A stretch of 64,000 nucleotides of DNA from Nitrospira sp. (GTDB lineage Bacteria > Nitrospirota > Nitrospiria > Nitrospirales > Nitrospiraceae): positions 2,770,001 to 2,834,000 of the forward strand of contig CP126123.1 in assembly GCA_030123605.1 (NCBI GenBank), given 5' to 3'. This document shows positions 42,761 through 57,362 of this stretch, in pieces. The translations under genes were made by a program, and so were the position numbers. How positions within the stretch are numbered: the stretch's first letter is position 1; the number at the start of each line of letters is the position of its first letter. Below the pieces are notes generated by a model, which made no database searches, had not been told where the DNA came from, and was given only the letters and a program-made list of their open reading frames with translations.

Positions 42761-43334
42761 ATTGATCACACCTAGGAAGGTTGCCTGTTGCAACCTTAGC
42801 AAACAGCAAGGGGTTGTCAAGAAGCGCGCCGGCCTCAGTGGGTTTGATTCATGCGCAGACCGGGTGTTATTGTGCCATCTATTCGCCAAGCACGTGCGCC
42901 GCGCAGATGGAATGCGGAAACAAACTCATGGTTTCCAGCAACGTGAGGGATGACGTGGGAGCGGAGAAACGGCGCATCAATACCCAAATGCCTCGCAGAA
43001 CGAAGGTTCGACCGTCGACGCCCATGGCCTCTGAGTGGGACATCGGTGCGGGAGCCCCACCGAATGACTTGAGGACACCGGCTAATAAAATGATGCCGCG
43101 CAGCACCAATGATCGCTCCTCCGTCAACGTTTCTCTACCGCCCAAGAACGACGGTAGCAGCAGGCGATCATAAGCTCCCTACGTCGCTTCTTCTCCCAAC
43201 TCCTGGACAGTATTCACTTTCTAGGACTTTCGGGACGAGAACCCTAGGTCCTTTGTGCGCTTGCTATTAAAAATGGGCAAGGGCTAAGATTCCGACCTCC
43301 TTATAAGCCCTCAAACCTGTTGAGGTTCGAGCCC
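42761..43334. other. Intergenic region upstream of the nuo operon
   Basis: 574 nt without a convincing gene. It must contain the divergent promoters of the OmpA gene and of the nuo operon, but no strong -35/-10 pair stands out. The segment 43214-43254 (CTAGGAC ... GGGACGAGAACCC ... TAGGTCC) can form nested hairpins. A minus-strand open frame at 42879-43145 carries two short similar segments but has no convincing start. Confidence 0.5.
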
Positions 43335-43718
43335 ATGGCCGGTTCCGAGCTCCTCTTAGAGTACCTGAGCCGATACTTTCCCATTCTGGTGTTCGTGTTC
43401 GTCGCCCTGGCGTTCGGCGTGGGCACGCTGCTGATCAGCTATTTCGTGCAGCCCAAATATCCGGAGCCGGAAAAGCTGTCCGCCTATGAGTGTGGATCCG
43501 AGCCGTTTTCCGATGCCCGGATGCCGTTTCCCGTGCGCTACTACATCTTCGCCATGCTCTTCGTGATTTTCGACGTGGAGGTCATCTTTCTCTATCCCTG
43601 GGCCGTCGTATTCAGCAAGATCGGTCTCATCGGTCTCGTGGAAATGTTGATTTTCATCGGTCTCTTCCTCGTCGCCTATGTTTATGCCTGGCGAAAAGGA
43701 GCTTTAGAATGGGATTGA
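43335..43718 (+). CDS. nuoA: NADH-quinone oxidoreductase subunit A
   Basis: A 127-residue membrane subunit with three transmembrane helices. The conserved loop [24 protein letters not shown] is split by TM1 and TM2 ([26 protein letters not shown]), with the acidic residues of the E-channel (DVE). It sits at the junction of the quinone site and the membrane arm. The ATG at 43335 has GAGG about 9 nt upstream; TTG at 43320 is an alternative. The last 10 nt overlap nuoB. Confidence 0.94.
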
Positions 43719-44236
43719 TTCAACTGGGGGTCCGAGACAAGGACGGGAGCCCCGACGTCATCACCACGACGGTCGAGAAGGCCGTCAATTGGGCCAGAAA
43801 GGGCTCCTTATGGCCGATGACATTCGGTCTGGCTTGTTGCGCCATTGAAATGATCGCCGCCGTCTCATCCCGTTATGATATGGATCGATACGGAGCCGGC
43901 GTCTTTCGTGCTTCTCCGCGCCAATCCGATCTCATGATTGTGGCCGGTACAGTCTGCCGCCGCATGGCTCCGGTGATTCGGAAGATCTATGACCAGATGC
44001 CGGAGCCCAAATATGTGATCGCCATGGGATCTTGCGCGACGTCGGGCAATATCTACGACAGTTACAGCGTGGTGCAGGGCGTCGATCGATTCGTGCCGGT
44101 CGATATCTATGTTCCCGGTTGCCCGCCGACGCCCGAGGCTCTGTTCGACGGCATTCTGAAACTGCAAGAACGCATTATGCAAAAGCGTGTGTTCCTCGCA
44201 CAACCGAAAGAAGTGAAGGAAGCCCTGAAGGTCTGA
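43709..44236 (+). CDS. nuoB: NADH-quinone oxidoreductase subunit B
   Basis: A 175-residue peripheral subunit that holds cluster N2, the electron donor to quinone. The four ligands are visible: tandem Cys43-Cys44 (GLACCAIEM), Cys in GSCATSGN and Cys in VPGCPPTPE. The start overlaps the end of nuoA by 10 nt with AAAAGGAG upstream. Length and motifs are normal. Confidence 0.96.
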
Positions 44237-44254
44237 CGGGCAGGAACGAGTCCG

Positions 44255-44752
44255 ATGAATCAACCGGCCACCCGTATCGAAGCAACCTTCCCCGGCGCCT
44301 TCGTTAAGGCGACAGAGTGGCGTGGAGACGTAGCCGTCACGGTCAAGCGGGAAGCGTTGCATGACGTGGCGCGGTTTCTGCGGAACGATCCCTCGCTGTT
44401 GTTCGATTACATCGTCCATGTGAGTTCGGTGGACTGGCCCGACGACGAGGAGCGATTTGAAGTCGTGTACGAGGTCTACTCGATGCGGACTCGCCAGCGT
44501 ATCCGCCTGAAAACACGGGTGCCAGAATCGGACTGCATCGTGGATTCCTTGACCGACGTGTGGAAGGGCGCCGACTTCATGGAACGCGAAGTGTACGACA
44601 TGATGGGGATTCGGTTCCGCAACCATCCGGATCTGCGCCGTATATTGATGCCGGACGAGTACGAAGAAGGTTATCCCTTGCGTAAAGATTTCCCACTACG
44701 CGGCAAGGGGTGGCGTGACACGTTCGACTTTTTGGATGAATCTGCCCGTTAG
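44255..44752 (+). CDS. nuoC: NADH-quinone oxidoreductase subunit C
   Basis: A 165-residue 30-kDa-type subunit. The C-terminal signature FMEREVYDMMGIRFRNHPDL followed by RRILMPDEYEEGYPLRKDFP is canonical. It bridges NuoD and NuoI in the Q-module. It is a separate gene here rather than fused to nuoD as in E. coli. Confidence 0.95.
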   Translation: MNQPATRIEATFPGAFVKATEWRGDVAVTVKREALHDVARFLRNDPSLLFDYIVHVSSVDWPDDEERFEVVYEVYSMRTRQRIRLKTRVPESDCIVDSLTDVWKGADFMEREVYDMMGIRFRNHPDLRRILMPDEYEEGYPLRKDFPLRGKGWRDTFDFLDESAR

Positions 44753-44785
44753 GGCGACATTCCTGGAACAGACCGCTGAAGGATC

Positions 44786-46033
44786 ATGGCACAGTTCGAA
44801 GATCAGAGAACCACCGTCTATAAGGTCGATCCCGAACATCCCGAGAGCGAGTCGCTGCCGACGCTCAGGACTGAAGAGCTGCTGCTCAACATGGGACCGC
44901 AACACCCCAGCACTCACGGGGTGCTGAAGGTCATCTTGGAATTGGAGGGAGAGCGGCTGGTCAAATCAACGCCGGTGATGGGCTTTCTCCATCGCGGCGT
45001 GGAAAAATTGGCCGAGGATGGGACCTACCACCAGTTCATTCCCCACACCGATCGCCTCGATTACGTGTGTGCGATGTACAACAACTTCGCCTATTGTCGC
45101 GCCGTCGAAAAACTGATGAACATCACGGTGCCGGAGCGAGCCGAGTACCTTCGCACCATCGTCGCAGAAATCCAGCGCATCATCGGACATCAGTTCTGGC
45201 TTGGCACGCAGGCGCTCGACATCGGGGCCATGACCGTTTTCTTCTACTGTTTCAGGGATCGCGAAATCCTGCTGGACTGGTTCGACGAACTCTGCGGAGC
45301 CCGCCTCACAACCAGTTGGTATCGTATCGGCGGGGTCGAGCGGGACTTCACGCCGTCGCTGTTCGCCAAACTCAAACAGTTTCTGGATTACTTCCCGCCG
45401 AAGATCGACGAATATGTGATCTTTCTGGAAAAAAATCGCATCTGGCTCGCGCGCACAAAGGGAGTCGCGGTGATTTCAGCCGAAGACGCATTGAGCTTCG
45501 GTCTGAGCGGGCCGACCCTGCGAGGGTCCGGCGTCGATTACGACCTCCGCAAATATGAACCCTATTCTGCCTATCCCAAATGCGAGTTCAGCGTGCCGGT
45601 CGGAAAGAACGGCGACACCTACGATCGCTATTGGATTCGCGTGCAGGAACTCTATGAAAGCGTCAAGATCATCCGCCAATGCCTGGAGCAGATTCAAGAC
45701 GGGCCCATCATGGCGGACGTGCCCAGCGTGACCCTTCCGCCGAAAGAGCGGGTGTTCACGAATCTGGAGTCCATGATTCAACAGTTCAAATTGTTCTCGC
45801 AAGGCTTCAACGCCCCTCCGGGAGAAATCTATTGCGGGACCGAAGCGCACAAAGGTGAATTGGGTTTCTACATTGTCAGCACGGGCGGAGGAAAACCGTA
45901 CCGGCTGAAAATCCGCGCCCCTTCGTTTATCCACATGGGCGCCTTCGACCATATGTCGAAAGGGTATATGATCGCAGACGCCGTGACGATCTTCGGCACG
46001 TACGATATCGTCATGGGCGAATGCGACCGGTGA
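44786..46033 (+). CDS. nuoD: NADH-quinone oxidoreductase subunit D
   Basis: A 415-residue 49-kDa-type subunit. NMGPQHPSTHGVLKVILELE starts the core domain; the quinone-site His and the Tyr in the family segment TYHQFIPHTDRLDY are present, and the C-terminus IFGTYDIVMGECDR is typical. It forms the quinone-binding pocket with NuoB. After the stop there is a 72-nt gap to nuoG that contains the 7-nt periodic repeat. Confidence 0.96.
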   Translation: MAQFEDQRTTVYKVDPEHPESESLPTLRTEELLLNMGPQHPSTHGVLKVILELEGERLVKSTPVMGFLHRGVEKLAEDGTYHQFIPHTDRLDYVCAMYNNFAYCRAVEKLMNITVPERAEYLRTIVAEIQRIIGHQFWLGTQALDIGAMTVFFYCFRDREILLDWFDELCGARLTTSWYRIGGVERDFTPSLFAKLKQFLDYFPPKIDEYVIFLEKNRIWLARTKGVAVISAEDALSFGLSGPTLRGSGVDYDLRKYEPYSAYPKCEFSVPVGKNGDTYDRYWIRVQELYESVKIIRQCLEQIQDGPIMADVPSVTLPPKERVFTNLESMIQQFKLFSQGFNAPPGEIYCGTEAHKGELGFYIVSTGGGKPYRLKIRAPSFIHMGAFDHMSKGYMIADAVTIFGTYDIVMGECDR

Positions 46034-46048
46034 GCCAGTTGGAAGTGT

Positions 46049-46096
46049 TGAGTGATACATTCTGAGTTCAACTCAACACTCAGAACTAAGAACTAG
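46049..46096. repeat. Second 7-nt periodic repeat, between nuoD and nuoG
   Basis: TGAGT at 46049 and 46063 (14 apart), then ACTCA at 46071 and 46078, ACTAA at 46085 and ACTAG at 46092, all with 7-base spacing. The opposite-orientation arms can pair. It matches the repeat at 70-164 in both core and period and sits inside an operon. Confidence 0.68.
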
Positions 46097-46105
46097 GAAT
46101 ACAGC

Positions 46106-48814
46106 ATGGGGCTAAAGCCAGCCACGAATCCCGACGTCGAAGCCGCCACGATCGAACTGTCCATCGACGGGCGGACGGTGACGGCCAAAGACGGTGTTTC
46201 GCTCTATGACGTCATTGCCAGCACGGGCAAGATCATTCCCGCCATGTGCTACCACTATACCTTCGATCCCTTCGGATCCTGCGGCATGTGTCTGGTCATG
46301 CAGGAAGGGAAAAAGGCCCCGGTCCGGTCCTGCACCGCCAAAGCCACAGCGGGCATGGTCATCCGTACGGAGGGCGAGGATTTATTTGCGGCCAGGAAAA
46401 AAGCGGTCGAGAAGCACCTGTCCGTCCATCCGCTGGACTGCCCCGTCTGCGACGCCGACGGCCATTGCGAACTCCAGGACATGGCGTTTCAGCACGGTGT
46501 GACGAACCTCGCCAACGCCAAGCAAAAGTTCATCCCCGAAGACACTCGAAGCCTGGTGCTCGATTTCAACATGAATCGCTGCATCGCCTGCGCCGAGTGC
46601 ATCAACGTCTGCAAAGACGTCTTGATGATCGACGCCTTGCAGTTCATGAAGAAGGGCGGCTTCAACCAGGTCGTCGCCAAGGGCGATCAACCGCTCTCTT
46701 GCGAATTCTGCGGCGATTGCCTGGCCGTGTGCCCCGTCGGCGCCATCACGAACAAGTATTCCAAATACCTCTACAAGCCGTGGCAGATGAAGAAAACCAC
46801 GACTACCTGCAACTATTGCGGTGACGGTTGCCAGATGCATCTCGAAACCAAAGACACCGAAGTGGTTCGCGTCACCTCACCGCTGTCCTGGAAGAATAAA
46901 TGGGGCGACCGGGCGGAAACCGCCAAGGGGCATGGCGGGCTTTGTGTTCGAGGGCGGTTCGGCTTTCAATATATCAACAGTGAGCAACGACTTCGACAGC
47001 CTCTTGTCCGAAAGGGCGAGACGTTGACAGAAACGCCCTGGCTCGACAGCATGCAGATCCTGATCGATCGGCTGTCAGAAATCCATCGCAAACACGGGCC
47101 GGAATCGATCGCCGGGCTCATCACTGCCCGTTGCACCAACGAAGAACTCTACCTGTTCCAAAAGCTCATGCGCGCCGGGTTCAGGACCAATCAACTCGAC
47201 AGCAGCGCCCGTTACGGCCATCTGAATTACGTCCATGCCGTGCGTCATGCCGTCGGCATCGGCCGGCCGCTCAATGATTGGGAAGACCTGACAAAAGCCA
47301 AAGCTGTGCTCGTGATCGGCTCCGACATCACGGAAACCAATCCGTTGACCTCCGTCCGTATCAAGGAAGCGATCCGGGTGTACAACGCCCAGGTCATCGT
47401 CGTGGATTCGGCGAATACCAACATCGCACACCTCGCCTCGCATCCGTTGTTGGTGAAACCGGGCACCGAAGCACTGCTGATCGACGGACTTGTCAAATCG
47501 GTGATCGAGCAAGACTTGATCGATGAGAGCGTCACGGCACGACATCCGCAAGCATTCGCTGCGCTGAAGCAGGCATTGGACCAGGTGTCGCTGGACCGGG
47601 TCTCCGCACAGACCGGTATTTCTGTCGGACAGATTCGAGAAGCGGCGGCCATCTTCGCGGAAGCACCACGCGCGGTGACGTTGTGCGCGGAAGGTATCGT
47701 CCGCCAGCCGAACGGGTACCAGAATGTCCTCAAGCTCATCGACCTCGCTTGGGTGACCGGCAAACTGAGCCGGCCGGGGTGCGGCGTCACGACGGTGACC
47801 GAAGAAATCAACGAACAGGGCGCGGTCGACATGGGTGTGGCGCCGGAGTTCCTTCCCGGCCAGGCGCGTTTCGACGACCAGGGCGCAAGAGAACGGCTCG
47901 GCAAGGCCTGGGACGTGACCCTGCCGGCCGCCGGCAGCGGGGCCAGTCTCCTGGAGATTCTGGCACGTATACGAAACGGCCAAATCAAGGCCCTCTACGT
48001 GATCGGGGAAAACCCCTTGGCGACCCTGCCAGCTTCCATGGACGTGAAGGGCACGCTTGAAAAATTACAGCTTCTGATCGTCCAAGATCCCTTCTTGACC
48101 GAAACGGGCCGGATGGCGCACATCGTCCTCCCGGCTGCGACCTATGCCGAGAAAGACGGTACCTTCACCAACCTCGAAGGCAAAGTCCTGCGCGTGCGTC
48201 AGGCGCTCGACCCGGTCGGTGAGAGCCTGCCGGATTGGCATATTATGACCGCGTTGGCCAACGGCCTCGGATACGACTGGCCCTATGAATCCCCGCAAGA
48301 CGTCCAGAACGAAATCATGAAACTGCTCCCGGGCTATTACAATCTCGGTCAGCCGCGTCGCGTCTCGCCGTCGGCGGACGCCTATCTGTCCAACGGATAT
48401 GCCGCCGAGGTGGCGAATCGGTATCGAGGCCAGTCAACAGTTCGTCCATCGAACGATCAGGCGCGGCCCTTTACCCTGCTGACCGGACAGGTGCTCTATC
48501 ATTCCGGGAAAATGTCTACGTGGGCCTCGGGCCTGATCAACATCGAACCGAACAGCGGGCGTTTGCGGATGAACCCCGCCGACTTGCAGCGACTCGGGCT
48601 GAACGAACAATCCACCGTTCGCCTGACGTCCCAACAGGGCTCCGTGCAGTTGGGTGTGACTGCGGATCCCGACGTTCTGCCCGGGTCTTGTTTCTTCCCG
48701 GAACATTTCAACGAGCCGCCGGTAAAAGATTTGATGGCCGTGGAGGCCGATGCAACGACGGGGGTGCCGTACTTCAAGTCCACGCACGTGAGCATTGAAA
48801 AGGTCGGTGCGTAA
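46106..48814 (+). CDS. nuoG: NADH-quinone oxidoreductase subunit G (molybdopterin-domain type)
   Basis: A 902-residue iron-sulfur subunit. An N-terminal 2Fe-2S domain (CGMC, RSC) is followed by the His-Cys3 cluster (HPLDCPVCDADGHC), two 4Fe-4S ferredoxin-type motifs (CIACAECINVC; CEFCGDCLAVC) and a further CxxCxxxC cluster (CNYCGDGC) opening the molybdopterin-like domain. The C-terminal dinucleotide-binding domain is complete, as in formate dehydrogenases, but the Mo-ligand Cys/Sec position is Gly371 (SSARYGH), so it is not a formate dehydrogenase. With no nuoE or nuoF near, its electron partner is open; ferredoxin is plausible. Confidence 0.92.
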   Translation: MGLKPATNPDVEAATIELSIDGRTVTAKDGVSLYDVIASTGKIIPAMCYHYTFDPFGSCGMCLVMQEGKKAPVRSCTAKATAGMVIRTEGEDLFAARKKAVEKHLSVHPLDCPVCDADGHCELQDMAFQHGVTNLANAKQKFIPEDTRSLVLDFNMNRCIACAECINVCKDVLMIDALQFMKKGGFNQVVAKGDQPLSCEFCGDCLAVCPVGAITNKYSKYLYKPWQMKKTTTTCNYCGDGCQMHLETKDTEVVRVTSPLSWKNKWGDRAETAKGHGGLCVRGRFGFQYINSEQRLRQPLVRKGETLTETPWLDSMQILIDRLSEIHRKHGPESIAGLITARCTNEELYLFQKLMRAGFRTNQLDSSARYGHLNYVHAVRHAVGIGRPLNDWEDLTKAKAVLVIGSDITETNPLTSVRIKEAIRVYNAQVIVVDSANTNIAHLASHPLLVKPGTEALLIDGLVKSVIEQDLIDESVTARHPQAFAALKQALDQVSLDRVSAQTGISVGQIREAAAIFAEAPRAVTLCAEGIVRQPNGYQNVLKLIDLAWVTGKLSRPGCGVTTVTEEINEQGAVDMGVAPEFLPGQARFDDQGARERLGKAWDVTLPAAGSGASLLEILARIRNGQIKALYVIGENPLATLPASMDVKGTLEKLQLLIVQDPFLTETGRMAHIVLPAATYAEKDGTFTNLEGKVLRVRQALDPVGESLPDWHIMTALANGLGYDWPYESPQDVQNEIMKLLPGYYNLGQPRRVSPSADAYLSNGYAAEVANRYRGQSTVRPSNDQARPFTLLTGQVLYHSGKMSTWASGLINIEPNSGRLRMNPADLQRLGLNEQSTVRLTSQQGSVQLGVTADPDVLPGSCFFPEHFNEPPVKDLMAVEADATTGVPYFKSTHVSIEKVGA

Positions 48815-48858
48815 GAGTAAGCTCGTCCGTCTTTTTGATGCGGCCAGGGGTGAGGGGA

Positions 48859-49446
48859 ATGAGTGTCGGAGATTTGACCAAAAAAATTCTGCAAGCGGCG
48901 TTGTTCTATGAAATCTGGGACGCCATGAAGGTTACCTTCAAGCACATGTTCCACAAACCCATCACGTTTCAATATCCGCGCGAACAGCGGACCATTCCGG
49001 ACGGTCATCGCGGTGCGCTCGGCCTGCTCCGCTACGACGACGGACGGGAACGTTGCGTGGGCTGTGATCTGTGCGAGGCGGCCTGCCCATCTCGATGCAT
49101 CAAGGTCATCAGCCACGAAGACGCCGACCGTCCCCTGCAGCGTTATGCCACGGAATTTTATATCGACATTACCAAATGCGTGTTTTGCGGTTACTGCGTG
49201 GAAGCCTGCCCCGTTAACGCGTTGGCGATGACCAAGATGTACGAATACTCCACCCACGACAAACGCACCCTCCTGTTCGACAAAAAACGTCTCTACGAGA
49301 TCGGCGAACGCCATCTCGCGGACGCCAAAAAATATCTGTATGCCCATAACCAGGAAAAAAATTCGAACGAGAGCCGGGAGTACCGTTATTACTTTCCGCA
49401 GTCGGTTCTCAAACCTACACAGTCACAACCCAAACACTTGAGCTGA
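48859..49446 (+). CDS. nuoI: NADH-quinone oxidoreductase subunit I
   Basis: A 195-residue 2x[4Fe-4S] subunit holding N6a and N6b (CVGCDLCEAACPSRC and CVFCGYCVEACPVNA). An N-terminal amphipathic helix binds the membrane. The C-terminal tail (about 160-195) is longer than usual and hydrophilic. It directly follows nuoG: the expected nuoH between them is missing. The ATG at 48859 is preferred, after GGGG; the frame is open to 48835. Confidence 0.94.
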   Translation: MSVGDLTKKILQAALFYEIWDAMKVTFKHMFHKPITFQYPREQRTIPDGHRGALGLLRYDDGRERCVGCDLCEAACPSRCIKVISHEDADRPLQRYATEFYIDITKCVFCGYCVEACPVNALAMTKMYEYSTHDKRTLLFDKKRLYEIGERHLADAKKYLYAHNQEKNSNESREYRYYFPQSVLKPTQSQPKHLS

Positions 49447-49457
49447 GCCGCACCGTT

Positions 49458-49982
49458 ATGGCCTTCGTGTTTTTCGTGTATTTCGCAGTGGTAAGTATTG
49501 TCGCCGGCATTCTGACCGTGGCGTTGAAGAACCCGGTGCAGTGCGGTTTGGCGCTCTTGGCCCTGCTCCTCCACGTCTCGGGCCTGTTCATCTTGCTGAA
49601 CGCCGAGTTCCTGTGGGCGGTCCAAGTGATCGTCTACGCCGGAGCCATCTTGGTCCTATATCTGTTCGTCCTCATGCTGTTGAACCTCAAGACGGACGAC
49701 CGCTATTTCCACGCCAAAACGCCCTATCTGCTTGCGCCTGCGGCGATAGGATTGTTGTATCTCATCTTTCTGCTGGCGCGGTCGCCGTTCGGTGGCGCAA
49801 AGGGCGATGCGCCTGCGGCAGCGATCCTGCAACATGGAGACGCGCACGCCATCGGGCTCAAGATGTTCAGCGAGTACTTGCTCCAGTTCGAGATAATAGG
49901 AATGTTTCTGACGGCGGCAATCGTCGGCGCTATTGTTCTGGCCAAAACCCCAACCCTCGTCAAACGGAACACCGATCGTTAG
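49458..49982 (+). CDS. nuoJ: NADH-quinone oxidoreductase subunit J
   Basis: A 174-residue membrane subunit with five hydrophobic helices, including the conserved TM3 region (VQVIVYAGAILVLYLFVLML) with the pi-bulge typical of NuoJ. It links the E-channel to NuoK. It follows nuoI after 11 nt and is followed 9 nt later by the guanidinium-exporter gene. Confidence 0.93.
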   Translation: MAFVFFVYFAVVSIVAGILTVALKNPVQCGLALLALLLHVSGLFILLNAEFLWAVQVIVYAGAILVLYLFVLMLLNLKTDDRYFHAKTPYLLAPAAIGLLYLIFLLARSPFGGAKGDAPAAAILQHGDAHAIGLKMFSEYLLQFEIIGMFLTAAIVGAIVLAKTPTLVKRNTDR

Positions 49983-49991
49983 GAACGGACC

Positions 49992-50309
49992 ATGGCTTGG
50001 GTCTATTTAGTAGCGGCCGGCATTTTTGAAATCGGGTGGGCCGTTGCTTTGAAGTACACGGAGGGGTTTTCACGCCTGTGGCCGACCGCCCTGTTCGCCG
50101 TGTCGATGCTGTTAAGCGTGTGGTTGCTGGCGGTGGCGCTGAAAACCATTCCTGTGGGAACCGGGTATGCGATTTGGACCGGAATCGGTGCCGCTGGCAC
50201 CGCGATTTTTGGTGTGATCCTGTTCGGGGAATCACGGGACGGATGGAGGGTTTTCGGCATCGTGTTGATCATTATGGGAATCGTGTCTCTGAAGCTTTCG
50301 AGCTCGTAA
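49992..50309 (+). CDS. gdx: Small multidrug resistance family guanidinium exporter (Gdx/SugE type)
   Basis: A 105-residue protein with four transmembrane helices. All six residues that I associate with the Gdx guanidinium site are in register: G10, E13, W16, S42, Y59 and W62. Sequence landmarks EIGWAVALKYT.GFSRLWP and PVGTGYAIWTGIG separate it from EmrE-type drug pumps. It works as a dual-topology dimer exchanging protons for guanidinium. It is embedded between nuoJ (9 nt) and nuoK (8 nt) in the complex I operon, so it must be co-expressed. The link to energy metabolism is unexplained; some Nitrospira are known to handle guanidine. Confidence 0.92.
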   Translation: MAWVYLVAAGIFEIGWAVALKYTEGFSRLWPTALFAVSMLLSVWLLAVALKTIPVGTGYAIWTGIGAAGTAIFGVILFGESRDGWRVFGIVLIIMGIVSLKLSSS

Positions 50310-50317
50310 CGAACCTT

Positions 50318-50620
50318 ATGATTCCTCTTTCTGCATATGTCACCGTGAGCGTGATTCTCTTCGTGACGGGGTTGCTCGGGGTGTTGATCCGACGCAATTT
50401 CATCATCGTGTTGATGTCCGTCGAGATCATGCTGAACGCCGCCAACATCAACCTGGTCGCCTTCTCCCATTATCTCGAATCCATGCAGGGCCAGATCGTG
50501 GCCCTGTTCAGCATCGCCATCGCGGCAGGCGAAGCGGCGATCGGACTGGCCATCATCATCGTCGTCTTCCGCGGCAAGATCTCGACCAACGTGGATGAAA
50601 TGAACCTGTTGAAGTGGTAA
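50318..50620 (+). CDS. nuoK: NADH-quinone oxidoreductase subunit K
   Basis: A 100-residue, three-helix subunit with the two conserved membrane Glu residues (VEIMLNAANINLVAFS and AAGEAAIGLAIIIVVFR) of the proton path. It starts at ATG 50318, 8 nt after gdx, and ends 1 nt before nuoL. Long upstream open frame is not coding, since family homology starts at MIPLSAYV. Confidence 0.95.
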   Translation: MIPLSAYVTVSVILFVTGLLGVLIRRNFIIVLMSVEIMLNAANINLVAFSHYLESMQGQIVALFSIAIAAGEAAIGLAIIIVVFRGKISTNVDEMNLLKW

Positions 50621-50621
50621 C

Positions 50622-52625
50622 GTGTCGGACTCCATCGATCTGATCGTCAAACTGATTGTCGTGTTTCCGTTGATGGCCGTCCTGGTGAACGGCCTCTTCG
50701 GGCACCGGTATTCTCATGACCTGGCGCACCGTTTCGCCTGGGGCTCCGTTCTGCTCTCGTTCCTCTGCACGCTGGCGGTCTTTACCGACACATTGAAAAC
50801 GGGAGCCGCTCGCGAGGTAGTGGCCTACAAGTGGATCTTCGGCGGCGACCTCACGATCAACCTCGCCTTTCTGATCGATCCCCTCACCTGCATCATGTTG
50901 TTGGTCATCACAGGGGTGGGGTTCCTGATTCACGTCTATTCCGTGGGATATATGCATGGAGAGTCGGGTTTCACGCGGTTCTTCGTGTACATGAACCTCT
51001 TCATGGTCTCGATGTTGTTGCTGGTGATGGGCAACAACTATGTCGTGCTGTTCATCGGGTGGGAAGGCGTCGGGCTCTGCTCCTATCTCTTGATCGGCTA
51101 CTACTACGACAAGGTGTCCGCCGCCAAAGCGGCCACGAAGGCCTTCGTGGTCAATCGGATCGGCGACGCAGGATTTCTGCTGGCGATCTTTCTGGTGTTC
51201 GTGAATTTCCGCACGCTCGACTACACCCAGGTCATGCAGAATGCCGCCCAGCTCTCGCCTGAAATGGCGACTGCCATCGCGCTCTGCCTGTTGATCGGCG
51301 CGGTCGGAAAGTCCGCTCAACTTCCGCTCTATACCTGGCTGCCCGATGCGATGGAAGGCCCAACGCCGGTCAGCGCCCTCATCCACGCCGCCACCATGGT
51401 CACAGCCGGCGTCTACATGATCGTCCGGAATCACGTGATCTTCGACATGTCCCCGGTCGCCATGACGACCGTCGCCTGGATCGGCGGACTCACGGCACTC
51501 TTTGCCGCCACCATCGGGCTTGTGCAAACCGACATCAAGCGGGTCCTGGCCTATTCCACCGTGAGCCAGCTCGGATACATGTTCCTCGGATGTGGCCTCG
51601 GCGCCTATACGGCCGCAGTCTTCCACCTGATGACCCACGCCTTCTTCAAAGCCCTGCTCTTCCTGTCCGCAGGCTCGGTCATCCACGCGCTGTCCGGTGA
51701 GCAGGATATCCGCAAGATGGGCGCCCTGAAGTCGAAAATTCCCTGGACACACACGCTCTTCCTGATCGGCACGATCGCGATCGCAGGCATTCCGCCCTTG
51801 GCGGGGTTCTGGAGCAAGGACGAGATCATGGGCCATGCCTTCGTCCACCACCACTATCTGCTCTACGGCATGGCAGCGGTCGGCGCCTTCCTGACGTCGT
51901 TTTATATGTTCCGACTGACCTACCTGACGTTTTATGGAACGTCGCGTCTGGACCACCATACCGCCGAACATGTGCACGAATCCCCGATGGTGATGATCGG
52001 CCCCCTGGTCGTGCTAGCGACATTGTCCGTCATCGGCGGCTTCCCTGGCGTTCCGCCGGAAAACGGCTGGTTCCATCACTTCCTCCATTCCGTGGCAAGC
52101 GTGGCGGGTGAAGAACATGCCGCAGCCCCGGCTCTGGTGATCGGTTTGATGGGAACGGCGACCGTCATTGCGCTGCTCGGTTGGGGCCTCGCCCATTATT
52201 TCTACGGCGGACATTCCACGGCAGCCGACGCTTTAGCCGCACGCATGCCCGGCCTCTATACGACCCTGCTCAACAAATATTATGTGGACGAACTCTATGA
52301 CCAGGTGTTCGTGGAACCCACGAAGCGATTGGGTCGGCTCTGGGACTGGTTCGATCGGACCATCATCGACGGCCTGATCCGGTCAGTCGACCGGGGAGCC
52401 GACGTCGGCTCTGCCGCCATCACCTGGACCGAAAAATACGTCATCTATGGATTCTTGAATATCATCGGCTATGCCAACCACTTGCTGGCTCGCTCCTGGC
52501 GGCGGCTCCAAACCGGCATGGTGCACCATTACGCGGCCATCATAGTGGCCGGACTGTTTATTCTCGTTCACGTCATTCTTTTGATCTGGACCGGGACCGG
52601 TTCATCCGGCTATTCGTCACGCTGA
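50622..52625 (+). CDS. nuoL: NADH-quinone oxidoreductase subunit L
   Basis: A 667-residue antiporter-like distal subunit, GTG start. Key residues are present: TM5 Glu (GWEGVGLCSYLLIGYY), TM7 Lys (VGKSAQLPLYTWLPDAM), TM8 His (ALIHAATMVTAGVY) and TM12 Lys (FWSKDEIM). The C-terminal third contains the lateral helix and final anchor (about 540-667), which should be long enough to span an extra antiporter subunit if the arm has one. It follows nuoK after 1 nt. Confidence 0.95.
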   Translation: MSDSIDLIVKLIVVFPLMAVLVNGLFGHRYSHDLAHRFAWGSVLLSFLCTLAVFTDTLKTGAAREVVAYKWIFGGDLTINLAFLIDPLTCIMLLVITGVGFLIHVYSVGYMHGESGFTRFFVYMNLFMVSMLLLVMGNNYVVLFIGWEGVGLCSYLLIGYYYDKVSAAKAATKAFVVNRIGDAGFLLAIFLVFVNFRTLDYTQVMQNAAQLSPEMATAIALCLLIGAVGKSAQLPLYTWLPDAMEGPTPVSALIHAATMVTAGVYMIVRNHVIFDMSPVAMTTVAWIGGLTALFAATIGLVQTDIKRVLAYSTVSQLGYMFLGCGLGAYTAAVFHLMTHAFFKALLFLSAGSVIHALSGEQDIRKMGALKSKIPWTHTLFLIGTIAIAGIPPLAGFWSKDEIMGHAFVHHHYLLYGMAAVGAFLTSFYMFRLTYLTFYGTSRLDHHTAEHVHESPMVMIGPLVVLATLSVIGGFPGVPPENGWFHHFLHSVASVAGEEHAAAPALVIGLMGTATVIALLGWGLAHYFYGGHSTAADALAARMPGLYTTLLNKYYVDELYDQVFVEPTKRLGRLWDWFDRTIIDGLIRSVDRGADVGSAAITWTEKYVIYGFLNIIGYANHLLARSWRRLQTGMVHHYAAIIVAGLFILVHVILLIWTGTGSSGYSSR

Positions 52626-52649
52626 CGACATTGATTTTCTGGACATACG

Positions 52650-54209
52650 ATGCTTGAAGAATTCAGTTTTGGTTTCCCCATCCTCTCGTACCTGATCTTC
52701 CTTCCCTTGGCGGGGGCCGCCGTCCTCTGGCTGATCGACAACGAAGATCTGGTCAAAACGACCGCCTTGGGAATTTCTCTGCTGGAAATGGCCCTGGCAA
52801 TCCTCGTTCTGTTGCGATTCGTGCCGGACTCGGCGGCGATGCAGTTCGCCGAACATGCGCGTTGGCTGCCGGCGCTCGGGATCGGCTACCACTTGGCCGT
52901 CGACGGCATCAGTGTGCTCTTCGTAGGCCTCACCGCCTTTCTGACCGTGCTGGTCATCATCTATTCCTGGGATACGGTGCGCAACCAGGTACGTCTGTAC
53001 TTCATGGCGTTGTTGGCGCTGGAGACCACCACCATCGGAATCTTCGTTTCCATCGACCTGATCCTGTTCTTCGTCTTCTGGGAACTCATGCTCATCCCCA
53101 GCTATTTCCTGATCAAGTTGTGGGGCGGTGGGGCGGAACGACATTATGCGGCGCTCAAATACGTGCTCTATACGTTGCTGGGCAGTGTCTTCATGCTGGT
53201 GGGCATCGCGTTGCTCGACATCAACTATCACCAATGGGCCGTGACCCATCACCTCGAACATGTCTACTCGTTTGACCTGTTAGAGTTGCTGTCGGTCCCG
53301 ATCCCGCTCTCCCAGCAAATTTTGATCTTCTGGCTCATGTTCATGGGGTTCGCCTTCAAGGCGCCGGTGTTCCCCTTCCACACCTGGCTTCCCGATGCGC
53401 TGGTTGAAGGTCCCATCGGCATGGCGGTCATGCTGGCAGGCATGAAATTGGGCACCTATGGATTCCTGCGCTTCACCTTCCCCCTGCTCCCAGATGCCTC
53501 GAAGAGCGAAGGGGTGGTTTCAGTCGTCATGGTGTTGGGCCTCGCCGCCATTCTCTATGGAGCCGTGATCGCGCTGGTGCAACCGGACTTCAAACGCCTC
53601 CTCGCCTTCAGCAGCATCAGCCACCTCGGCTTTGTCGTGGTGGGGCTCTTTGCCCTGAACTTTCAAGGCCTGCAGGGCAGCCTGTTGACCATGATCAACC
53701 TGGGGTTCAGCACCGCCGGCCTGTTTTTCATGGTGGGCTTTCTCTCGACCAGGCAACAGAGTTCCCACCTCTCCGCCTTCGGAGGCTTCGCGAAACAGGT
53801 CCCGCTCCTCGCCACCTTTCTCTTGCTGATCGGCATGGCCTCCATCGGATTGCCGGGCACCAATGGATTCGTCGGCGAATTCCTGATTTTGCTCGGCGCC
53901 TTCAAGGCCAAATGGTGGTATGGAGCCATAGCCGTCCTTGGCGTTATCTTCGGGGCAGCCTATTTCCTCTGGTATTACGAACGGGCGATGCTCGGACCCC
54001 TGACCAAGAACGTCTCGGCGACGATCAAGGATTTACAGATGCGAGAGGTCGCCATAGCCCTGTCGTTGTCAATCATGATCTTATGGATCGGCCTCTACCC
54101 GTCGCCCTTTCTGAGAATGATGAACGGATCGATTCAAGCCCTCGTGGACCGGCTGGATCGCGCCAAAGTGGCCTCCGTAGAGACCGTCATCCACGCGCCG
54201 GCTGAGTAA
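52650..54209 (+). CDS. nuoM: NADH-quinone oxidoreductase subunit M, first copy
   Basis: A 519-residue antiporter-like subunit with all expected charged residues: TM5 Glu (FWELMLIPSYFL), TM7 Lys237 (GFAFKAPVFPFHTWLPDA), TM8 Lys (MLAGMKLGTYGFLRF) and TM12 Glu (NGFVGEFLILLGAF). It is therefore a normal proton-pumping NuoM. It follows nuoL after 24 nt and precedes a second, divergent nuoM by 4 nt. Confidence 0.95.
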   Translation: MLEEFSFGFPILSYLIFLPLAGAAVLWLIDNEDLVKTTALGISLLEMALAILVLLRFVPDSAAMQFAEHARWLPALGIGYHLAVDGISVLFVGLTAFLTVLVIIYSWDTVRNQVRLYFMALLALETTTIGIFVSIDLILFFVFWELMLIPSYFLIKLWGGGAERHYAALKYVLYTLLGSVFMLVGIALLDINYHQWAVTHHLEHVYSFDLLELLSVPIPLSQQILIFWLMFMGFAFKAPVFPFHTWLPDALVEGPIGMAVMLAGMKLGTYGFLRFTFPLLPDASKSEGVVSVVMVLGLAAILYGAVIALVQPDFKRLLAFSSISHLGFVVVGLFALNFQGLQGSLLTMINLGFSTAGLFFMVGFLSTRQQSSHLSAFGGFAKQVPLLATFLLLIGMASIGLPGTNGFVGEFLILLGAFKAKWWYGAIAVLGVIFGAAYFLWYYERAMLGPLTKNVSATIKDLQMREVAIALSLSIMILWIGLYPSPFLRMMNGSIQALVDRLDRAKVASVETVIHAPAE

Positions 54210-54213
54210 GACC

Positions 54214-55869
54214 ATGGCTGAATACACATTACTCATCATCCTTTTCGCCCCGTTTGTCGGGGCCTTGGCCTTGATCTTCGTCTCCAACCGCCAACTCTCA
54301 TTGGTCCGAGGCATTGCCGCCGGCGCCGCCGGTGTTTCTTTGATCGCTTCGTTGTACCTCTTTTATGCGTACGATTCGCTCAAAGGCGGCTTCCAATTCA
54401 TTCAACGTATCGAATGGTCCCGCCAATTGGGAATTTCGCTCCATCTCGGGGTGGATGGCATCGGGACCCCTCTGGTACTGGCCTCCGCGATCCTGCTCTT
54501 CGCCGGCATTTTCGTCTCTTGGCACATCAAGGACCGGACAAAAGAGTTCTACATCTGGATCTTGATCCTCGCCGCCGCGACCATCGGCGTCTTCATGTCG
54601 CTGGATCTCTTCTTCCTCTATTTCTTCTATGAAATGTCCGTGATCCCCATGTACCTCTTGTTAGGCATGTGGGGCAGCCACACGAAGAAATATCTGGAGA
54701 TGACCGACCCCGAAGGCCTCAAGCAACGGGATTCCGTCGGCTTCATTTTCAATTTCGCCGCCAACAGCAAAGAATACGCGGCCATGAAGTTGGTCCTGTT
54801 TCTGTCCGCCTTCGCAGTAGTGGCCTTGATGGGGATTCTGCTCATCTATAAGTTTTCCGGGCTCAACACCTTCGATATTTTGGTCCTGCGCGAGAAGGCC
54901 CATTTCTCCGGCCCCCTGGCGACGCTCATCTGGCTGTTGATCTTCTTCGGCTTTGCGTCGATCGCCCCGATCTGGCCGCTGCATTCCTGGTCCCCCGTCG
55001 GCCATGCGGCGGCACCGGCCGCGACCAGCATGTTGCATGCCGGCGTCTTGATGAAACTCGGGCATTTCTCGATCATCCGCGTCGCCTTCGAAATCCTCCC
55101 CGAGACGACCCGTGAGCTCATGCCGATCGCCGCCGTCCTCTGCATCTTCAGCATCATTTACGGAGGACTGGTCGCCTACTACGCGAAGGACACCAAGTAT
55201 GTGATCGGGTATTCCAGTTCCAGCCACATGGGCTACGTGTTCCTCGGCATGGCGGCACTCGACTACATCAGCCTGAGCGGTGCTGTGATCTATATGTTCG
55301 CGCACGCGATGGCCACTGGTATGCTGTTCGCCATGGCCGGCTGGGTCTACGATCAAACGCATACTCGCGACATTCCCTCCTTGGGCGGACTGTCCAACCG
55401 GATGCCCTTCATCTCGGCCGCCTTCGTCGTCGGCTGCATGGCCTCGATCGGCATGCCCGGAACGGTTAACTTCATCGCCGAAGTCATGATCATCGTCGGC
55501 AGTTGGAACAAATACCCCTTTCAAGTCGTGATCGCGGTGTTGGGCATCGTGCTGACCATGGCCTATCTCTTCAAGATGATGCGCGGCCTGTTCTATGGAT
55601 CGATGGCGGAGAAATACAGCCACTCGCACGACGCGGTGGCGGTCGTCGATCGCCTGCCGCTCTTGATCATGATCACCGTCAGCATCGGCTTCGGCATTTT
55701 CCCCGGCCATCTCTACTCGGTGGTCCGTTCAGGAGTCGATCCGCTGATCGCCCGTATCACCAAGGTCGTCCCGGTCGCGGAACAACCGATGACCGATCCA
55801 CATGCCGCCTCATCATCAGCACCCCTGTACACGTCCGGTGAGGCGATAGCGAAGGTGACCTTGCAATGA
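54214..55869 (+). CDS. nuoM: NADH-quinone oxidoreductase subunit M, second divergent copy
   Basis: A 551-residue NuoM homologue. TM5 Glu140 (FYEMSVIPMYLL), TM8 Lys281 (GVLMKLGHF) and TM12 Glu423 (NFIAEVMIIVGSW) are kept. The central TM7 Lys is replaced by Ile250 (FASIAPIWPLHSW), and LPDA is changed to SPVG. A hydrophilic insert of about 35 residues follows TM5 (HTKKYLEMTDPEGLKQRDSV). Clusters with two NuoM are known as 2M complex I and are thought to pump more protons. Whether this subunit pumps without the TM7 Lys is uncertain. The 3' end overlaps nuoN by 4 nt. Confidence 0.93.
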   Translation: MAEYTLLIILFAPFVGALALIFVSNRQLSLVRGIAAGAAGVSLIASLYLFYAYDSLKGGFQFIQRIEWSRQLGISLHLGVDGIGTPLVLASAILLFAGIFVSWHIKDRTKEFYIWILILAAATIGVFMSLDLFFLYFFYEMSVIPMYLLLGMWGSHTKKYLEMTDPEGLKQRDSVGFIFNFAANSKEYAAMKLVLFLSAFAVVALMGILLIYKFSGLNTFDILVLREKAHFSGPLATLIWLLIFFGFASIAPIWPLHSWSPVGHAAAPAATSMLHAGVLMKLGHFSIIRVAFEILPETTRELMPIAAVLCIFSIIYGGLVAYYAKDTKYVIGYSSSSHMGYVFLGMAALDYISLSGAVIYMFAHAMATGMLFAMAGWVYDQTHTRDIPSLGGLSNRMPFISAAFVVGCMASIGMPGTVNFIAEVMIIVGSWNKYPFQVVIAVLGIVLTMAYLFKMMRGLFYGSMAEKYSHSHDAVAVVDRLPLLIMITVSIGFGIFPGHLYSVVRSGVDPLIARITKVVPVAEQPMTDPHAASSSAPLYTSGEAIAKVTLQ

Positions 55870-57362
55870 CGTTTTCCCTCACGATTACGGCCAGTGATCT
55901 GCTGTTGCTCCTCCCGGAGTTGTTTCTCATCGCATGGCTCTGCATCATCCTGATCGTCGATTTTTCGTTCAAACGGATCGTGCAGGAGCAACTGGCCTAC
56001 CTCAGCATCCTGGGGCTCGCCGTCACGCTGGCCATTCTGGCCTACTTCGACGTCACCGGCATCACCGGCACCCTGTTCGGCAAGATGTTCGTGTTGGATC
56101 GTATGGCCATCTTCTTCAAGATCATGATCCTGTTGGCGACGATCCTGGTGATCCTCCTCTCGATCGATTATGTGCACCGGTTCTCTTTCTTCCGCGGCGA
56201 ATACTATTTCCTGGTCGCCACGTCCGCCCTGGGCATGATGTTCATGGCTTCGGCCAACGATCTCCTGTCGCTGTTCGTCACGCTCGAATTTTCGACATTT
56301 GGCTTTTACGTGCTGGTCTCCTACCTGCGTGACGATATGGCCTCCAACGAAGCCGGCCTCAAGTTTTTCATCCTTGGGGTCTTTGCAGCGGGGCTGTTGG
56401 CCTACGGCATCAGCCTGGTCTTCGGCGAAACGGGCAAACTGGTCTTCTCGGAGCTGAGCGGTGCGGCGCCGACCACCGGCCTCGTCATCGGCTTTCTGCT
56501 CATTTTTACCGCCTTGGGGTTCAAAATCGGCACTGTCCCGTTCCATTCCTGGATTCCCGATACGTACCATGGCGCGCCCACTCCTGTGACCGCGTTCCTG
56601 TCGATCGCGCCGAAGGTCGCGGCCTTCGCCATTTTGTTGCGGTTGTTCCTTGTCACATTGGCGACCTTCAAGCCGGCCTGGGTGTTGCTGCTCGTCGCGG
56701 CCTCGATCCTGTCCATGACGTACGGCAACATCGTGGCGATCGCCCAGCGAAACATCAAGCGCCTGCTGGCCTACTCCGGCATCGCACAAGTCGGTAACGT
56801 GTTGATCGGCCTGGCGGCCGGAACCAAAATGGGGACTGACTCCATTTTGTTCTACCTGCTCACCTACCTCTTTGCGAATCTCGGCGCCTTCGCGGTCATT
56901 ATGGCGATCAGTAATGCGCTGGGGAGCGATGAGATCGAAGATTACAGCGGGCTCAATCGGCGTTCACCGTTCCTGGCGTTCGCCATGCTGATTTTTCTCC
57001 TGTCGCTGGCCGGAGTGCCTCCGCTGGCCGGCTTCATCGGAAAGCTCTACATTTTCGTTGCGGCGATCAAGGAAGGTCTCTACACACTCATTGCCGTGGG
57101 GCTTCTCAACGTCGTCATCTCGATGTACTACTATTTGATCATCGTGAAGAAGATGTACATCAGCGAACCGCTCGATTCGTCTCCCATCAAGACCACTGGT
57201 CCCTTGCGGGCGGTGGTCTATGTCGGCCTCGCCGGGACCCTCGTCATCGGCATCTATCCGCAACCCTTCATCGACTGGGTCGTGGCTGCAACCCTCATGT
57301 TCTCCAATTTGGTAGGTCCCTCCGCCTCCATCCCCCCGACCGTTCTTCCATTCGGAGGATAG
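55866..57362 (+). CDS. nuoN: NADH-quinone oxidoreductase subunit N
   Basis: A 498-residue antiporter-like subunit next to NuoK in the complex. Key residues are present: TM5 Glu (VTLEFSTFGFYVL), TM7 Lys (GFKIGTVPFHSWIPDTYHGA), TM8 Lys (SIAPKVAAFAILL) and TM12 Lys (GFIGKLYIFVAAI). It starts within the end of the second nuoM (ATGA overlap) and is the last gene of the operon. No terminator hairpin is evident in the 150 nt that follow. Confidence 0.95.
   Translation: MTFSLTITASDLLLLLPELFLIAWLCIILIVDFSFKRIVQEQLAYLSILGLAVTLAILAYFDVTGITGTLFGKMFVLDRMAIFFKIMILLATILVILLSIDYVHRFSFFRGEYYFLVATSALGMMFMASANDLLSLFVTLEFSTFGFYVLVSYLRDDMASNEAGLKFFILGVFAAGLLAYGISLVFGETGKLVFSELSGAAPTTGLVIGFLLIFTALGFKIGTVPFHSWIPDTYHGAPTPVTAFLSIAPKVAAFAILLRLFLVTLATFKPAWVLLLVAASILSMTYGNIVAIAQRNIKRLLAYSGIAQVGNVLIGLAAGTKMGTDSILFYLLTYLFANLGAFAVIMAISNALGSDEIEDYSGLNRRSPFLAFAMLIFLLSLAGVPPLAGFIGKLYIFVAAIKEGLYTLIAVGLLNVVISMYYYLIIVKKMYISEPLDSSPIKTTGPLRAVVYVGLAGTLVIGIYPQPFIDWVVAATLMFSNLVGPSASIPPTVLPFGG

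Follow-up and report, generated by a model that had tools for sequence, protein, structure and literature searches.

The extra NuoM of the Nitrospira 2M complex I, NuoM2, has, throughout its family, isoleucine at the site of the TM7 lysine and serine where the N-side gate leucine would stand, and the remaining residues of its proton wire are strictly conserved. Our tentative preference is for a subunit that continues to carry protons, with gating supplied by its neighbors rather than by a switch of its own. The gene lies in a 64,000-nucleotide stretch (the window) of a Nitrospira genome, from the same genus as N. defluvii; positions below refer to the window, and all features are on its + strand.

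The nuo cluster with two nuoM genes

The window contains a 14-kb nuo cluster (43320 to 57362), in which open reading frames and Pfam matches identify nuoA, B, C, D, G, I, J, and K (43320 to 50621), followed by nuoL (50622 to 52625), nuoM1 (52650 to 54209), nuoM2 (54214 to 55869), and nuoN (55866 to 57362). This L-M-M-N order of antiporter genes, with its second nuoM, assigns the cluster to clade 3 of 2M complex I. In the alignment, the long amphipathic helix of the 667-residue NuoL contains an insertion that is found in all aligned 2M NuoL but is absent from the other, canonical NuoL of the same genome (637 residues) and from Bacteroides; the lateral helix extension of 2M complexes is given as about 26 residues in the literature. 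The cluster shares with the clade, of which it is a member, the two nuoM genes, the longer NuoL lateral helix, separate nuoC and nuoD, and the absence of nuoE, nuoF, and nuoH, none of which was found within 43320 to 57362. Nitrospira CI_1 has been classified as a clade 3 2M complex I (PMC6606698), and the presence of this complex in Nitrospira has been published, as has a possible part for it in reverse electron flow (PMC6606698, PMC9040806, PMC12342949). 2M complexes also occur in Chloroflexota, Nitrospinota, and archaea. In the accessible descriptions of 2M complex I, the second NuoM counts as a further subunit that pumps protons, whereas the one described here lacks the TM7 lysine and the gate leucine. 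Chadwick et al. 2018 is the key paper on this complex; it and most subscription papers lie outside the accessible 2M literature, in which neither missing residue is mentioned.

NuoM2 is a NuoM without the canonical ion pair

NuoM2 (551 residues) is a NuoM by profile, by fold, and by residues. It scores 416 bits against TIGR01972 (NDH_I_M; curated cutoff, 263.8) and contains the antiporter domain PF00361 (E = 6.8e-54). Its AlphaFold2 model (pLDDT 80.9, pTM 0.84) has Paracoccus NuoM (8qby_M) as its top PDB match, with a TM-score of 0.83/0.91, and the TM5 glutamate, TM8 lysine, and TM12 glutamate typical of NuoM are present in 147 to 148 of the 148 aligned NuoM2 rows.

The segment from 54946 to 55056 encodes NuoM2 residues 245 to 281 (FGFASIAPIWPLHSWSPVGHAAAPAATSMLHAGVLMK). 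Ile250 (codon ATC, 54961 to 54963) occupies the site of the TM7 ion-pair lysine and aligns with E. coli K234, Paracoccus K232, and Thermus K204; NuoM1 has Lys237 here (codon AAG, 53358 to 53360). Ten residues farther on, Ser260 (54991 to 54993) replaces the N-side gate leucine that follows the HxW motif (E. coli L244, Paracoccus L242, Thermus L214); this position is Ser in 148/148 NuoM2 rows versus Leu in 138/142 NuoM1 rows. Val, Ile, or Leu likewise takes the place of the phenylalanine next to the TM12 glutamate on its C-terminal side. Compared with canonical NuoM/ND4/Nqo13 of E. coli, Paracoccus, and Thermus, which possess all three of these residues, NuoM2 shares the fold, the TM5 glutamate, the TM8 lysine, the TM10/TM11 histidines, and the TM12 glutamate.

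The TM5 ion-pair glutamate is Glu140 (54631 to 54633; 148/148), the central TM8 lysine is Lys281 (55054 to 55056; 148/148), and the terminal TM12 glutamate is Glu423 (55480 to 55482; 147/148, the remaining row being a gap). Together with His338 (55225 to 55227; 148/148), they align with E. coli E144, K265, E407, and H322, respectively. Two further histidines of the wire are kept in most NuoM2, namely, the N-side uptake histidine His264, equivalent to Paracoccus H246 (55003 to 55005; 143 His and 5 Tyr among 148), and His364, equivalent to E. coli H348 (55303 to 55305; 143/148). TM8 holds His275 (55036 to 55038; 148/148), which shares a column with NuoL His254 and has an equivalent in Bacteroidales NuoM but not in NuoM1, and the NuoM2-specific His284 (55063 to 55065; 147/148). 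The first-pass annotation had contrasted Ile250 with Lys237 of NuoM1 and had listed Glu140, Lys281, and Glu423 as intact; translation and alignment bear out both points.

The lysine loss is fixed and under constraint

All 148 aligned NuoM2 rows have Ile at the TM7 site, versus Lys in all 142 NuoM1 rows, and the 133 distinct NuoM2 proteins recovered over all loci are Ile without exception. Since Ile250 is spelled by three codons (ATC in 100, ATT in 28, and ATA in 1), recent shared descent is not the cause of this uniformity. NuoM2 is present in 115 of 118 searched genomes of the order, and its signature occurs in none of the sampled genomes of the phylum beyond the GTDB class of the window. In a scan of genome contigs the best 80 matches were all Nitrospira-like, and scans of viral contigs gave no match to a further NuoM2 or Bacteroidales-type NuoM. 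NuoM2 has a dN/dS of 0.036 relative to N. defluvii and the lowest dN among NuoL, NuoM1, NuoM2, and NuoN, and residues 250 to 289 (TM7 to TM8) are near-invariant throughout the family.

The loss is thus neither a local mutation nor decay; the 133/133 isoleucines, the three codons, and a dN/dS of about 0.04 leave a negligible probability for a local mutation, a sequencing error, or a decaying duplicate. The alignment across two-nuoM clusters that the first-pass annotation had proposed gave Ile throughout, with no relative regaining Lys. Its central claim stands: the lysine is really absent, and NuoM2 must function without the standard Glu-Lys switch. The alignment contains no conserved, NuoM2-only Lys or Arg in the helix core that might substitute, the two TM8 histidines being the only candidates.

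NuoM2 belongs to an old lysine-less subfamily

Lys occupies the TM7 site in each of approximately 50 other NuoM, which come from Nitrospirota, Pseudomonadota, Actinomycetota, and Bacillota, and the sole exceptions in this comparison are three Bacteroidales (Bacteroides, Phocaeicola, and Prevotella). Their NuoM (L166:8938-10419, L179, and L180) resembles NuoM2 in having a hydrophobic residue for the TM7 lysine, Ser for the gate leucine, and the TM8 motif LHAGVLMK. It differs in having Leu instead of Ile, in the absence of His284, in sharing only about 35% identity, and in having no second NuoM beside it in its complex, whose NuoL lacks the helix insertion; in gene order it adjoins NuoN. In a tree from which the TM7-TM8 columns were excluded, the Bacteroidales NuoM is the sister group of NuoM2, and the two share one clade (support, 100/97). 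An in-place duplication of NuoM1 was considered and rejected, the grouping of NuoM1 with NuoM2 having a p-AU of 0.0003. Phylogenetically, then, Nitrospira did not gain its extra NuoM by copying the adjacent NuoM1, and the TM7 lysine would most simply have been lost once, in an old NuoM subfamily. As NuoM2 groups with a sole NuoM, the loss marks this subfamily and not extra subunits per se, and the idea that it came from becoming an extra subunit is weakened by the one, equally lysine-less NuoM of Bacteroidales.

Three lysine-bearing modules in extended complexes I

Within 2M clusters, the TM7 lysine is present in NuoN (133/133) and NuoL (98/98) as well as in NuoM1. Complexes with two MrpD-like subunits have Lys in MrpD1 (8/8) and Asn in MrpD2 (11/11); four rhizobial green complexes I have Lys in MrpD1, NuoM, and NuoN and Asn in MrpD2. 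Asn-bearing MrpD2-like subunits of the five-antiporter and rhizobial green complexes are encoded at L064:8909-10882, L165:7219-8979, and L265:3073-4833. The MrpD2-like subunit found in rhizobial green complexes I and in Manganitrophaceae Complex_I_3 is like NuoM2 an added subunit that keeps the TM5 glutamate and lacks the TM7 lysine, but it has Asn and not Ile, belongs to the MrpD family, carries a TM12 lysine, and bears the lateral helix; its lysine loss is independent of that of NuoM2. With Asn in MrpD2 and Ile in NuoM2, every extended complex sampled retains three lysine-bearing modules (N, M1, and L in 2M; N, M, and MrpD1 in green; N, M1, and MrpD1 in five-antiporter complexes), although three is not a strict requirement, as the Bacteroidales complex has two. 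The gene order also follows a charge rule, in that the lysine-less M2 and MrpD2 adjoin a unit with a TM12 lysine (N and MrpD1, respectively), whereas a unit that comes after a TM12 glutamate retains its own TM7 lysine.

NuoM1 and NuoM2 differ further in their uptake histidines. NuoM1, which also has a 2-residue deletion in TM8, has Leu251 and Leu351 at the sites of E. coli H248 and H348, and these histidines are gone from NuoM1 in most 2M clusters; where NuoM1 has Leu/Leu, NuoM2 retains both. In most members of family f7 and in families f10 and f12 the two have traded states, with His/His/Arg in NuoM1 and Tyr/Asp/Leu or Met in NuoM2, and the state is reversed between the two NuoM in five-antiporter complexes. 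A rule that exactly one NuoM retains the uptake histidines is broken by one lineage (G393/L240) with histidines in both, and NuoN and NuoL lack these histidines; as independent swap events are few, the complementary pattern is suggestive only. In the five-antiporter NuoM2 (L064, L065, and L068), a second lysine stands by the TM8 lysine (HAGVLKKLG compared with HAGVLMKLG).

It may be, though we hold this with less confidence than the favored reading of NuoM2 itself, that 2M, green, and five-antiporter complexes generally keep three full Glu-Lys switches, the number in canonical complex I, that their added subunits are unswitched and neighbor gated, and that the two 2M NuoM divide uptake and switching between them. 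With uptake and switching so divided, a longer arm would not simply add one proton per subunit.

Possible mechanisms of NuoM2

The strong constraint on NuoM2, and a NuoL lateral helix as long as a fourth unit would call for, argue that NuoM2 is a working part. If the gene order L-M1-M2-N mirrors the membrane arm, which would place NuoM2 beside NuoN, the charge rule leads to the reading that we favor. Protons would pass along a wire His264/His275-Lys281-His338/His364-Glu423 in a subunit that has neither an intrasubunit Glu-Lys switch nor a bulky N-side gate (Ile250, Ser260). Glu140 would face and pair with Lys393 on TM12 of NuoN (57042 to 57044; Lys in 133/133 NuoN of 2M clusters), which would stand in for the missing lysine, so that the NuoM2 module would follow NuoN instead of switching on its own. 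NuoM1, with its switch kept and its uptake histidines usually lost, would then hand the charge wave on to NuoL. The option that NuoM2 pumps by a different route, raised in the first-pass annotation, is thus the one that we prefer, with gating by neighbors added, at odds that we put somewhat below even.

Canonical NuoM also adjoins the TM12 lysine of NuoN and nevertheless keeps its own TM7 lysine, which counts against neighbor gating. Mutants of Thermus Nqo13 are informative on what such a wire may do. Proton conduction becomes faster when the ion pair is broken (E123Q; PMC11496545) or the gate made smaller (L214A; PMC13220270), and in isolated Nqo13 it stops on loss of the central lysine or the terminal glutamate (PMC11496545, PMC13220270), both of which NuoM2 retains. 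By this analogy NuoM2 may be an open, unswitched but complete wire; the analogy is limited in that loss of the glutamate in E123Q does not equal loss of the lysine, no K204 mutant having been found. In the sole NuoM of Paracoccus, K232Q and L242A each nearly abolish activity (PMC9802314); a NuoM in which the two are combined might therefore be inert, which again counts against neighbor gating.

Four other readings are each less probable. The one that comes next, unlikely but to be taken seriously, is that NuoM1 and NuoM2 jointly do the work of one NuoM, the switch operating in one and N-side uptake in the other, at about 4 and not 5 protons per 2 electrons. It would explain why NuoM1 combines its Lys with Leu/Leu where NuoM2 has His/His and why the histidine state is swapped in f7, f10, and f12, and it agrees with the three TM7-Lys units of every extended complex sampled and with the abolished activity of the Paracoccus TM7 histidine mutant H246F (PMC9802314). 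The swaps, however, amount to only about two independent events, histidines occur in both NuoM of G393/L240, NuoN and NuoL are thought to pump without them, the Paracoccus TM11 mutant H346Q is mild (PMC9802314), and Bacteroidales has only two TM7-Lys units. We regard as improbable that the switch has been rebuilt, with another basic residue of NuoM2 pairing with Glu140. TM8 His275 would be the most likely partner, being invariant in NuoM2 and shared with the lysine-less NuoM of Bacteroidales but not with NuoM1; His284 (147/148) would be the alternative. Yet the His275 column is His also in NuoL and MrpD1, both of which have the TM7 lysine, so this histidine is not specific to lysine loss; published work places its Thermus NuoL homolog, H241, within the uptake channel (PMC13220270), and Bacteroidales lacks His284.

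A little less probable still is a spacer or force-transmitting unit without ion carriage, which would lengthen the arm and might, for example, alter the energetics of reverse electron flow. NuoM2 does lack a residue without which the single NuoM of Paracoccus stops working (PMC9802314), but Lys281, His338, His364, Glu423, and His264, needless in a spacer, are under strict selection, and such conservation of proton-wire residues makes the plain spacer envisaged in the first-pass annotation unlikely. Carriage of Na+ or another cation has only the odd residues in its favor, and we consider it very unlikely.

Implications for proton stoichiometry

The figure of five protons per two electrons for the 2M complex is unproven, and the fifth proton underlies ideas on how nitrifiers reach ferredoxin by reverse electron flow. 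Given that NuoM2 always lacks a lysine thought essential for pumping, the assumption of an extra proton per extra part needs testing. NuoM2 of these widespread nitrite oxidizers and the sole NuoM of Bacteroidales are natural tests of the need for this lysine in pumping. The loss of the gate leucine, the complementary changes in NuoM1, and the same lysine loss in the extra subunit of rhizobia extend what was first noticed in the window.

Other features of the cluster

Three nuoH-like genes are located elsewhere in the genome (2456578, 277715, and 3074564); as the cluster has none, the 2M complex must borrow one of them or do without. A small multidrug resistance (SMR/SugE-like) gene unrelated to nuo (PF00893, E = 1.5e-29; 49992 to 50309) is located between nuoJ and nuoK, and among other nuoJ loci only L241 (G309) shares it.
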